Positions 26,741 to 42,281 of a DNA stretch of 64,000 nt are shown here, piece after piece. The stretch is from Nocardia asteroides (GTDB taxonomy: Bacteria; Actinomycetota; Actinomycetes; Mycobacteriales; Mycobacteriaceae). The position numbers and the translations under genes were made by a program. Position 1 is the stretch's first letter, and each line of letters starts with the position of its first letter. Below the pieces are notes generated by a model. It did no database searches, was not told the DNA's origin, and was given only the letters and a program-made list of their open reading frames with translations. The stretch lies in assembly GCF_900637185.1 (NCBI RefSeq), contig NZ_LR134352.1:4578001-4642000 (forward strand), given 5' to 3'.

Positions 26741-27631
26741 TCAGTGACTGGCGACCTTGCGGTACTGCAGCAGGGCCGCGGGCATGGCGACCGCCAGGAT
26801 CACCACCGAGCAGATCACCGCGTAGAGCACACAGTTGTCGGCCGCCCAGCCGGTGGCCGGGGCGAACGAGGGCGGCGCGTCGTTGTCGAACAGCTTGCGC
26901 CCGGCCGCCGACACCGCGGTGATCGGGTTCCATTCCGCGATCGTGCGCAGCGGACCCGGCAGCGTCTCGGCGGAGATGAACGCCGAGGAGATGAACGACA
27001 GCGGGAACATCCAGATCAGGCCCGCGCTCTGGGCGACCTCGACGGTCGGCGAGATCAGGCCGGTCAGCGCGCCGACCCAGGACATCGCGAACGCGAACAG
27101 CAGGATGATGGCGAAGGCCAGCGCGGCGTCGGCGACGCTGCCGTGGATGCGCCAGCCCACGATGTAGCCGCAGATCACCATCACCCCGAGGCTGAGCACG
27201 TTCACCACCAGGTCCGACAGGGTGCGGCCCATCAGCACCGCCAGCCGCGACATCGGCAGGGTCCGCATCCGGTCGATGATGCCCTTCTGCAGGTCACCCG
27301 CCAGGCCGACGGTGGTGAAGGCGGCGTTGAACGCGACCGTCTGGGTGAAGATGCCCGCAAGCAGGAATTCGCGGTACTGGTCGCCGCCCAGGGACGCGCC
27401 GAAGATGTAGGCGAACAGGAACACGAACATCAGCGGCTGCACCGTCGCGGTCACCAGCAGCGTCGGCACCCGCAGGATGGTCAGCAGATTGCGGTGGGCC
27501 ACGATCGCGCTGTCGCGGATGAACCGAGCCCGCGGCGGCGCCTCGGCCGCCGCGGCGGGCCGGGGCGCTGCGGTCTGGATCGGCATCTCGCGGGTGTCGT
27601 AATCCTCCGCGACCTCCGGTGCCACGCTCAC
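26741..27631 (-). CDS. ABC-2 type transporter permease, DrrB-like
   Basis: 296 residues from the GTG at 27631, which overlaps the ATPase stop by four bases (GTGA). After a Pro/Ala-rich N-terminus, six hydrophobic segments follow: LLVTATVQPLMFVFLFAYIFGASLG, FAAFTTVGLAGDLQKG region, LVVNVLSLGVMVICGYIVGW, FAIILLFAFAMSWVGALTGL, AGLIWMFPLSFISSAFI and CVLYAVICSVVILAVAMPAALL. The loop GDLQKGIIDRMRTLPMSR is the coupling region of DrrB-type exporters of antibiotics, lipids or peptides. It is the last gene of the synthetase operon and probably exports the peptide. Confidence 0.93.
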   Translation of the reverse strand: MSVAPEVAEDYDTREMPIQTAAPRPAAAAEAPPRARFIRDSAIVAHRNLLTILRVPTLLVTATVQPLMFVFLFAYIFGASLGGDQYREFLLAGIFTQTVAFNAAFTTVGLAGDLQKGIIDRMRTLPMSRLAVLMGRTLSDLVVNVLSLGVMVICGYIVGWRIHGSVADAALAFAIILLFAFAMSWVGALTGLISPTVEVAQSAGLIWMFPLSFISSAFISAETLPGPLRTIAEWNPITAVSAAGRKLFDNDAPPSFAPATGWAADNCVLYAVICSVVILAVAMPAALLQYRKVASH

Positions 27632-28617
27632 GAGAGAATCTCCTCTTGCACGTCGTCGGTTTCGGGCTCCACGACCGGTTCGGCCGGAGTCCCGGTGAGG
27701 GAAAGGAACACGTCGTCGAGGGTGGGCCGGACGACGACGGCGTCGACGACACACACCCCCGCGTCGTCGAGCCGGCGCAGCGCTTCGACCATGGTGCGGG
27801 AGCCGTTGCCGACCACCACCGACACCTCGTCGCTGCCCGGTTCGTGGATCGGTTCACCGACGCCGACCTGCTGCAGCACCGTCATCGCCGACGCCGGGCT
27901 CTGCCCGGCCGCGAGGGTGACCGTCAGCCGGTCGCCGCCGATCGAGGTCTTGAGTTCGTCGGCCGAGCCGCGCGCGATCACCGTGCCCTTGTCGATGACG
28001 GTGATGCGGTCGGCCAGCAGGTCGGCTTCCTCCAGGTACTGCGTGGTGAGCAGCACGGTGGTGCCGTCGTCGACCAGGTCGCCGATCACCTGCCACATGT
28101 CCAGCCTGCCGCGCGGGTCCAGGCCGGTGGTCGGTTCGTCGAGCACCACCACCGGCGGGCGCGCCACCAGCGCGCCCGCGAGGTCGAGCCGCCGGGCCAT
28201 GCCGCCGGAGTAGGTGCCCGCGCGCCGTCCGGCGGCGTATTCCAGGCCCAGCGCGGCGAGCAGCTGTTCGGCCCGTTCCACCGCCTGCTTGCGGGACATG
28301 CCGTACAGGCGCGCCACCATGCGCAGGTTCTCGTACCCGGTCAGGTTCGCGTCGACCGCGGCGTACTGCCCCGACAGGCCGATCCGGGTGCGCGCGGTGG
28401 CCGGGTCGGCCAGCACGTCGACACCGGCGACCCGGATCGAGCCGGCGTCGGGCCGCAGCAGCGTGGTGACGACCCGCACGGTGGTCGTCTTGCCCGCGCC
28501 GTTGGGTCCCAGCAGGCCGAGCACCGTGCCCGCGGGGATCTCCAGGTCGATCTCCTTCAGCACGCGCACCTTGCCGTAACTCTTGGCCAGGCCACGGACT
28601 TCTACCGCCAGACTCAC
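27628..28617 (-). CDS. ABC transporter ATP-binding protein, DrrA-like
   Basis: 329 residues from the GTG at 28617. Walker [13 protein letters not shown], the signature-region [34 protein letters not shown] with Walker B, and [17 protein letters not shown] are complete. A C-terminal domain of about 90 residues ([19 protein letters not shown]...[15 protein letters not shown]) is typical of DrrA daunorubicin-resistance ATPases. The start overlaps the synthetase stop by four bases and its own stop overlaps the permease start, so the three genes form one coupled unit. DrrA-type exporters commonly accompany nonribosomal peptide synthetases in actinobacteria. Confidence 0.95.
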
Positions 28618-40600: not shown

Positions 40601-42281
40601 GGTCGGCCGGATGATCCGGATCCAGCGGCAGGTAGGCGGCACCGGTGGCCAGCACGGCGTAGAGCCCGATGACCATCTCGATGCTGCGGTGCAGGCACAC
40701 CCCGACCGTGGTCTCGGGTCCGGCCCCGCGCGCGATCAGTTCGCGGGCGAGCTGGTTCACCCGGTCGCCGAGCTCGGTGTAGCCGATGGCGCGGTCGCCG
40801 AATTCCAGGGCGACGGCGTGCGGGCTACGGCGCACCTGGTCGGTGAACAGCGAGACCAGAGTGGCCTCGGGCACCGGGATCTCGGTGGCGTTCCACTCGC
40901 GCAGCACCAGGGCCTGCTCGTCGGCGGTGATCGCGGTCAGCGCGCGGGTGGGGGTGCCGGGCTCGGCGGCCAGGAAGCGGCCGAGGAAGTCCAGGTAGCG
41001 ACCGTGGTGGGCGGCCACTTCGGCCTCGCCGTAGAGCTTGGGGTTGGCTTCGAAGTCGAGCTGGATGCGGCCGCCGTCGCCGTTGTAGATGTTGATCGAG
41101 AGGTCCTCGACGGGACCGGTGGCGAGCACGTGCAGCTGGCCTGCGATGTCACCGAACTTGAGCTCGTCGTGGAACAGCATGATGTTGACCATCGGGCCGA
41201 AGAAGCCACGCGCGTCCCGGGAGTACCCGCAGTCGCGGCGGATGTCGTCGGAGCGGTAGCGCTGGTGCCGCAGCGCACCGGTGATCTGCAGTTCGGTCTG
41301 GCGCACGACGTCGGCGACGGTGGTGTGCTCGTCGAAGCGCACGCGCAGCGGCACCACGTTCGACACCACACCCGCCGAGCGGCGCAGGGCCACGGTGGTG
41401 CGGGCCGAGACCGGCAGGCTCAGCACGACGTCGGAGTCGCCGGTGACCGAGCGCACGTAGGCGGCCAGGGCCGCGACGATGAGCGCGGAGTTGGCCGAGC
41501 CGTGCGCCGTGATCGCGTCGGTGAGCAGGGCGTCGAGGTCGGTGTCGAGGACCGCGGTGGCGCGGTGGCGCCCCGGGTCGTGGGTGTCGCCCGTGGCGGT
41601 GACCGAGGACAGTGTCATCGGCTCGCCCACGCCCGCGAGCTGTTCCATCCAGTACTCGCGGTCGGCCCGGCACCGGCTGGATTCGCGGTAGCGCGACTCG
41701 TCGGCGTAGAGCTCGACCAGCGCGGCGGCCCGCGAGACCGACGGCTCGCGCTGTTCGCCGACGGCGGTGTAGATCTCGGCGGTGCGCGCGAGCGCGTTCA
41801 TCGCTCCGTAACCGTCGATAACGATGTGGTGTCCGCGTTCGTACCAGAACCAGTCCTGGTCACCGACCTGCAACACGACATTGATGGTGAGCGGTTCGCG
41901 TTCCATGTCGATCGGGGTGCTGGCGTGCTGATTCATCCAGCGCAGCGCCGCGGCGCGCGGGTCCGGCTCGCCGCGCAGGTCGATGCGGGCCCAGCCCGGC
42001 CGCCAGGCCAGGTCGACCCGCTGGTGCGGTACCCCGTCGATCTCGAGTAGGCGCACGTGTCCCACCTGGGATTCGGCACCGAAGCGCTCCACGGCGTAGA
42101 GCAGCCTGCCCGGGTCGAGATCACCGTGCAGTTCGACGTAATGGGCGATGGTGAGGGGAATATCGGGCCGGATCCGTTGCGCATACCACAGGGCCGTCTG
42201 ACCGGGCGAGAGAGCGAACGGTTGGCCCGGATCGTCGTCGGTGACGCATGAGCTGACGCGGTCGGTGGCCAATGAACTCAT
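28614..42281 (-). CDS. Four-module nonribosomal peptide synthetase with thioesterase
   Basis: 4,555 residues from the ATG at 42281, which has a GGAG site. The preceding TTG is not needed. Domain order by residue: C1 (15-450, HHIVIDG at 151), A1 (465-970), T1 (Ser1024 in LGGNSL), C2 (HHICGDG at 1208), A2 (near 1698), T2 (Ser2081), C3 (HHIAADG at 2265), A3 (near 2761), T3 (Ser3146), C4 (HHIAMDG at 3354), A4 (near 3841), T4 (Ser4230), TE (GWSLGG, Ser4364). All carrier serines and condensation histidines are intact, and there is no epimerase or methyltransferase domain. Pocket codes read by eye: A1 DVWHFSLVDK (serine), A2 DALFIGMVAK, A3 DVLFMGAVIK, A4 DGLFLGVIVK; the last three are not assigned. 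C1 and the TE resemble those of EntF. No MbtH-like gene lies nearby. Confidence 0.96.

Follow-up and report, generated by a model that had tools for sequence, protein, structure and literature searches.

A four-module peptide synthetase with an adjoining ABC transporter pair is an inherited fixture of the lnt-rbpA junction in Nocardia and probably makes an acylated, serine-first tetrapeptide

We analysed a 64,000-nucleotide stretch of the Nocardia asteroides genome (NCBI RefSeq assembly GCF_900637185.1, contig NZ_LR134352.1, positions 4,578,001 to 4,642,000 of the forward strand), hereafter the window, in which the genes for a four-module peptide synthetase, an ABC ATPase and an ABC permease lie between rbpA and lnt. 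An earlier note on this DNA had described a compact synthesis-and-export operon amid conserved housekeeping genes, and this description held. The features of the locus are given below in window coordinates, where C, A, T and TE denote condensation, adenylation, carrier and thioesterase domains.

28614..42281, minus strand: four-module peptide synthetase, (C-A-T)x4-TE, 4555 aa (open reading frame, Pfam, motifs)
40872..42281, minus strand: putative starter-type condensation domain C1, residues 1-470, in which Ala160 aligns with RzmA R148 (structure-sequence comparison)
39312..40871, minus strand: A1 segment, residues 471-990, code DVWHFSLVD, the EntF (serine) code
36162..37691, minus strand: A2 segment, residues 1531-2040, code DALFIGMVA
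32967..34511, minus strand: A3 segment, residues 2591-3105, code DVLFMGAVI, the genus-variable position
29712..31241, minus strand: A4 segment, residues 3681-4190, code DGLFLGVIV
28614..29471, minus strand: C-terminal thioesterase, residues 4271-4555, with triad candidates Ser4364, Asp4391 and His4517
27628..28617, minus strand: DrrA-type ABC ATPase, 329 aa (TIGR01188, 331.2 bits, cut-off 312.45)
26741..27631, minus strand: ABC-2 permease, 296 aa (PF01061, 99.3 bits)
26339..26674, plus strand: rbpA, flanking gene outside the operon (PF13397)
42486..44606 as listed, minus strand: lnt, apolipoprotein N-acyltransferase, flanking gene (TIGR00546, 273 bits)

The synthetase is encoded by a single open reading frame with an ATG start, and since this 4555-residue frame holds 13 domains in order, a chance open reading frame is excluded. 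Pfam returned 13 stretches (four Condensation, four AMP-binding, four PP-binding and one Thioesterase), with AMP-binding_C passing on three of the A domains, and the C-A-T order is assigned from the number and spacing of these matches and of the motifs. The HHxxxDG motif in C1 to C4, the GGxS motif in T1 to T4 and the A-domain core motifs are intact, and all three triad candidates of the TE are retained. The synthetase stop codon and the GTG start of the ATPase gene overlap within the four bases GTGA, and the same overlap joins the ATPase stop codon to the GTG start of the permease gene. The earlier note was therefore correct in reporting an uninterrupted frame with four C-A-T repeats and a TE, intact carrier serines and condensation histidines, four-base overlaps to the ABC genes, and rbpA and lnt on either side. 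No separate epimerisation domain is apparent in the synthetase, although the Pfam Condensation model used can match epimerisation domains too.

The synthetase is under purifying selection, with a whole-protein dN/dS of 0.16 against each of three relatives (NG86). The values for C1 (0.11, 0.12 and 0.17) were similar to that of the whole protein, and the highest value among the C, A and TE domains belonged in all three comparisons to the C domain that precedes A3 (0.24-0.29). Codes and catalytic residues were counted in 37 synthetases, namely 30 from Nocardia, including that of the window, and seven others; the synthetase of locus L145 was excluded as its frame is broken. The HHxxxDG motif of C1 is kept in 36 of the 37, and the lone exception alters only the final Gly.

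When C1 was compared with solved structures, the starter C domain of RzmA came out on top (223-227 bits, three sequences), followed by ObiF1 (166 bits), the CDA starter C domain (160 bits), EntF (156 bits) and VibH (99 bits). The elongation domain C2, used as a control, had different best matches (5u89, 394 bits; the PCP-C structure 7kvw, 345 bits). These comparisons assign C1 to the starter type found at the N-terminus of RzmA, HolA and CDA, although in contrast to the starter-C lipopeptide synthetases the present enzyme has four modules and places serine first, and its C1 is only distantly related to theirs. According to the accessible text of PMC7804268, R148 of RzmA restricts the acyl chain, the R148A variant binds C8-CoA, and changing R148 and Y138 together lengthens the chain further. 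The residue aligned with R148 is Ala160 in the window and Ala in all 37 synthetases, as in HolA and the RzmA R148A variant (PMC7804268), and the residue aligned with Y138 is Gly150 in the window and Ala or Gly in 30/30 Nocardia.

The nine-residue code of A1, DVWHFSLVD, is identical to the EntF code that we fetched and is present in 37/37 synthetases. Since the code positions were mapped by motif from GrsA numbering, serine, checked against EntF, is the only residue claimed. The A2 code of the window occurs in 23 of the 30 Nocardia, the other seven being one position off, and the A4 code DALFLGVIV occurs in 25 of them; the A4 code of the window is shared with two of the 29 other Nocardia, as is its A3 code. 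For A3, there were 17 distinct codes among the 30 Nocardia, and this diversity, together with the high dN/dS of the preceding C domain, makes residue 3 the likely variable residue. The A-domain code strings that we tried were not found in the literature searched.

The position of the synthetase is constant across the genus. Among the Nocardia lnt loci (the best 80 of 189 matching loci, one of which, L059, is truncated where its contig ends), the synthetase gene comes next after lnt in 80/80, its first C domain starting no more than about 0.6 kb downstream and being 59-95% identical to that of the window. An orthologue of C1 with at least 59% identity was found in 146 of 148 Nocardia genomes, the remaining two (G015 and G055) being fragmented assemblies, and a full-length frame (at least 4452 aa) was found in 131 of the 148. 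In 13 of the 15 genomes with shorter frames, the synthetase and rbpA lie on separate contigs. The two genes share a contig in 129 of the 146 genomes, and in every one of these rbpA lies downstream, 15.5-22.6 kb from the synthetase start. In the 30 Nocardia loci that were read, the ATPase and permease genes directly follow the synthetase gene without exception. Since the synthetase follows lnt in all 80 loci, is full length in 131 of 148 genomes and has rbpA downstream in 129 of 129, the operon is an inherited fixture within Nocardia and has long occupied the lnt-rbpA junction. A recent genomic island was also considered and was ruled out by this genus-wide survey and by the ordinary GC content of the operon, which resembles that of its neighbours.

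Outside Nocardia, the family sample comprised 141 genomes, of which 122 were compared (of the other 19, three had no rbpA match and 16, including nine g3 genomes, had no lnt among the matches listed). The rbpA and lnt genes lie on one contig in 115 of the 122 and are convergent in all 115. No more than 2 kb separates them in 79 of these 115 genomes, so the Nocardia interval is extra DNA relative to those genomes; the longer gaps measure 2-10 kb in 14 genomes, about 10 kb in two (g14), 13.8-16.9 kb in seven and 31-47 kb in 13. The seven genomes with gaps of 13.8-16.9 kb (G222, G172 and five g6 genomes) each contain a synthetase of 4487-4584 aa that is 49-56% identical to the window synthetase over its full length. 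In G222 and G172, the ATPase (65 and 73% identity) and the permease (76 and 78%) are present as well. Five of the 13 loci with the longest gaps were read (G169, G182, G156, G279 and G281), together with G283, in which lnt is on another contig, and all six have larger synthetases at the junction (loci L153-L154, L156-L163 and L175). Frames of 9887 and 9010 aa are present in G169 and G283, respectively; G182 has at least three frames, and the frames of G156, G279 and G281 extend across the boundary between two stretches read.

In the C1 tree, the four-module sequences of Nocardia, G222, G172 and g6 form one group (support 96/99), the larger synthetases of g6, g10 and G283 form a separate group (100/100), and G169 is placed outside both groups, less strongly supported (86/80 and 93/78). 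In the A1 tree, Nocardia is one group (100/99) and G222 and G172 come next (93/84), but four giant synthetases separate these from g6 with weak support (88/84). In the lnt tree, G222, G172, g16 and g20 join Nocardia (95/90), and the four-module g6 genomes stand away from Nocardia, beside the long-branch G197 (97/97). Judged from these trees, at least two synthetase lineages occupy the junction in the family, G169 being probably a third, and both one old gain followed by losses and several separate gains are possible. Relatives of C1 at E 1e-100 turned up in seven genomes of an order-wide sample of 249, and each of the seven belongs to this family.

The earlier note overlooked that many relatives have a third gene, ppm, between lnt and rbpA, and that this gene is missing here. 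The order in short-gap loci is lnt-ppm-rbpA, and a homologue of the ppm of locus L168 (60-82% identity) was found in eight of ten other short-gap loci (L164, L165, L167, L169 and L171-L174) and was not found in L166 and L170. By comparison, a linked ppm was absent from all 80 Nocardia lnt loci (flanks of up to 10 kb, less at contig ends) and from the window, where the gap between lnt and the synthetase (42282-42485) contains no ppm. The nearest homologue in the source genome, which is a single contig (G000:C1:1443065-1443742), is 49% identical to that of L168 and lies about 3.2 Mb away. In a chosen set of 44 related genomes, the counts from which are not independent, 31 have no linked ppm and every one of these has an unlinked homologue with at least 70% identity; the other 13 have a linked ppm, and three of them (G222, G156 and G169) also have an unlinked one (59-76%). 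The unlinked gene is present in 29/29 genomes with a junction synthetase versus 5/15 without one, and the linked gene is gone in 26 of the 29. Judging by the gene order in G222 (lnt-ppm-synthetase-ABC-rbpA), the synthetase seems to have been inserted between ppm and rbpA in that lineage. Nocardia has kept the operon while the lnt-linked ppm was lost and the unlinked homologue remains. Both homologues, judged by sequence and position, probably act as Ppm, and the exchange of the linked gene for the unlinked one is a separate, testable case of housekeeping-gene displacement.

The operon is already known, with no product named. As described in the accessible part of Maennle et al. 2020 (PMC7413640), gene cluster family 4 (GCF 4) is present in all Nocardia species of that study, consists of one four-module nonribosomal peptide synthetase (NRPS), a putative N-acyltransferase and two transporters, and is predicted to make a peptide with an N-terminal serine followed by three aliphatic or aromatic residues. 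The operon of the window has a single four-module NRPS gene adjoined by two transporter genes and a putative N-acyltransferase gene, carries a serine code in its first A domain and occurs throughout Nocardia (146/148, the other two fragmented), and it is almost surely the same as GCF 4, for which the accessible description gives no locus or coordinates. The N-acyltransferase of GCF 4 is most likely lnt, a housekeeping neighbour that adjoins rbpA in genomes without a synthetase there as well. The accessible text does not mention a starter-C assignment, the position, the loss of ppm or relatives outside Nocardia for GCF 4 (PMC7413640). A four-module NRPS of unpredictable composition was also listed in all seven strains of Komaki et al. 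2014 (line #25; PMC4035055), with no position or mechanism in the part of that paper available. The earlier note had left the product unidentified, and these matching published clusters are likewise without one. In the sources accessible to us, we found nothing on the location of the operon between lnt and rbpA, the loss of ppm or the acyl gate, although no search was aimed at the location. Most Rhodococcus NRPSs also begin with a C-starter domain, according to the available text of PMC5550956.

Overall, we favour the view that throughout Nocardia the operon encodes a lipotetrapeptide assembly line and a dedicated exporter, the product being an exported N-acyl-Ser-X-X-X lipopeptide, and we give this a probability of about 0.62. 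In this pathway, C1 would accept a fatty acyl thioester of medium or long chain length, produced elsewhere, and couple the acyl group to serine on T1, modules 2-4 would add three residues that are probably hydrophobic and L-configured, with residue 3 probably varying among species, the thioesterase would release the chain in linear or cyclised form, and the ABC pair would carry the product over the membrane. A secondary-metabolite gene that purifying selection maintains at the same housekeeping site in an entire genus probably has a role in basic physiology, not in occasional warfare. Publications of 2014 and 2020 both noted the missing product, a gap that its identification would close, and the kind of mass to seek is indicated by the serine code and the acyl-gate residues.

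Several observations weigh against this assignment. The gate rule comes from RzmA, a distant relative, and ObiF1 and EntF are relatives of C1 as well; the second gate site holds Met or Val in the seven orthologues from outside Nocardia. No fatty-acyl ligase or acyl carrier is among the genes identified beside the operon. The source genome has a weaker match to the dehydrogenase of the dihydroxybenzoate (DHB) pathway, the one DHB gene sought (259.6 bits; TIGR04316 cut-off 300), and matches at E 1e-60 or better occur in 41/98 Nocardia, the source genome included, so a DHB supply is possible. The five g6 orthologue loci have no ABC pair, so the link between export and synthetase does not hold in all lineages. 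A product name for the operon was not found in the literature searched, which covered few subscription journals. Finally, the frames in G072 and G028 are broken within a contig that also carries rbpA, through either decay or misassembly. In G072 (L145), the synthetase is in pieces of 3861 and 1065 aa, and the second broken case is at G028:C15.

EntF and ObiF1 are DHB enzymes, and the operon could encode an enterobactin-like catecholate synthetase in which C1 takes DHB, A1 takes serine and the product is a siderophore. EntF shares with the window synthetase the C1-A1-T1 order, the serine code and a related TE (97 bits, among the better solved TE matches), ObiF1 ranks second among the solved structures matched by C1, and the NCBIfam EntF model NF007605 scores 1992.2 bits on the synthetase. 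This score is below the cut-off of 2400, however, and EntF has one module versus four, its C domain is 27% identical to C1, which is nearer to the RzmA starter C domain (227 vs 156 bits), and its gate residue is Phe where C1 has Ala. Moreover, a search for the DHB dehydrogenase (TIGR04316), in which the E. coli and B. subtilis controls were positive, gave matches over the cut-off in only 11/98 Nocardia, the source genome not among them, although weaker matches occur in more, and siderophore clusters of the nocobactin type are reported in 92/101 Nocardia genomes (accessible text of PMC7413640). The siderophore reading is weakened by the C1 matches, the gate residue and the dehydrogenase counts, and we consider it highly improbable; given the starter-type C1, the Ala gate and the scarce DHB dehydrogenase, a fatty acyl start of about C8 or longer is most likely. 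Somewhat less improbable, but still unlikely, is a non-acylated tetrapeptide whose growth starts at serine with C1 vestigial or unused; in its favour, no acyl-activating gene was identified at the locus, whereas the C1 motif is kept in all but one synthetase and C1 is as constrained as the whole protein.

A variant of the lipotetrapeptide proposal, in which the TE oligomerises or macrocyclises, as the EntF enzyme does, and yields a dimer or a cyclic lipodepsipeptide with ring closure at serine instead of a linear tetrapeptide, is a possibility that we hold only tentatively. Solved relatives of the TE include 7crn (167 bits) and the EntF TE, and the serine hydroxyl would be available, but the TE sequence alone does not settle the release mode. 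The earlier note had read the operon as inserted into a housekeeping block of this lineage. The part of this claim that stands is that the interval is extra DNA relative to the short-gap genomes, and the lnt clade of Nocardia, G222 and G172 does include genomes without the operon, namely g20 and two other g16 genomes. Insertion specific to this lineage is nevertheless scarcely tenable, since the operon occupies this place in every Nocardia locus and genome in which the position could be read; the note itself had regarded its presence here in all relatives as a sign of ancestry, and it is present in this way within Nocardia and patchily beyond it (G222, G172 and five g6 genomes). That the junction is a recurrent landing site for synthetases, with an envelope lipopeptide as product and a gene that replaces a lipoprotein or lipoglycan gene behind lnt and is maybe co-expressed with it, is a conjecture that we regard as rather doubtful.

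Further features of the locus and of the source genome are as follows.

26672..26745, no strand: very stable hairpin separating the permease gene from the convergent rbpA (-55.3 kcal/mol, z -7.45)
46255..46749, minus strand: FxsA
G000:C1:6897365-6898702 and 5941826-5943172: C1-like domains of two other synthetase frames (44-46% identity)

Compared with DrrAB-type exporters, the ATPase passes the drrA cut-off, but the permease, an ABC-2 protein, scores 58.6 bits with the drrB model TIGR01247, under its cut-off of 223.05 (the stretches scanned were 27628-28620 and 26741-27634, respectively). The hairpin is possibly a terminator shared by the operon and rbpA; a T-run terminator pattern sought there was not found. 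In L121, L122, L135, L145 and other loci, additional genes lie between the permease gene and rbpA; by eye they differ among loci, one in L135 looking LipB-like, and they were excluded as operon members. The lnt of the window is 92% identical to that of Nocardia sp. MH4, and its true start is probably near 44070. One amidohydrolase gene lies between FxsA and lnt, and genes for a LuxR-type response regulator and a histidine kinase adjoin fxsA (window 46813-48666). Elsewhere in the source genome there are two MbtH matches, both outside this locus, and the two other synthetase frames with C1-like domains are 14617 and 4414 aa in length.

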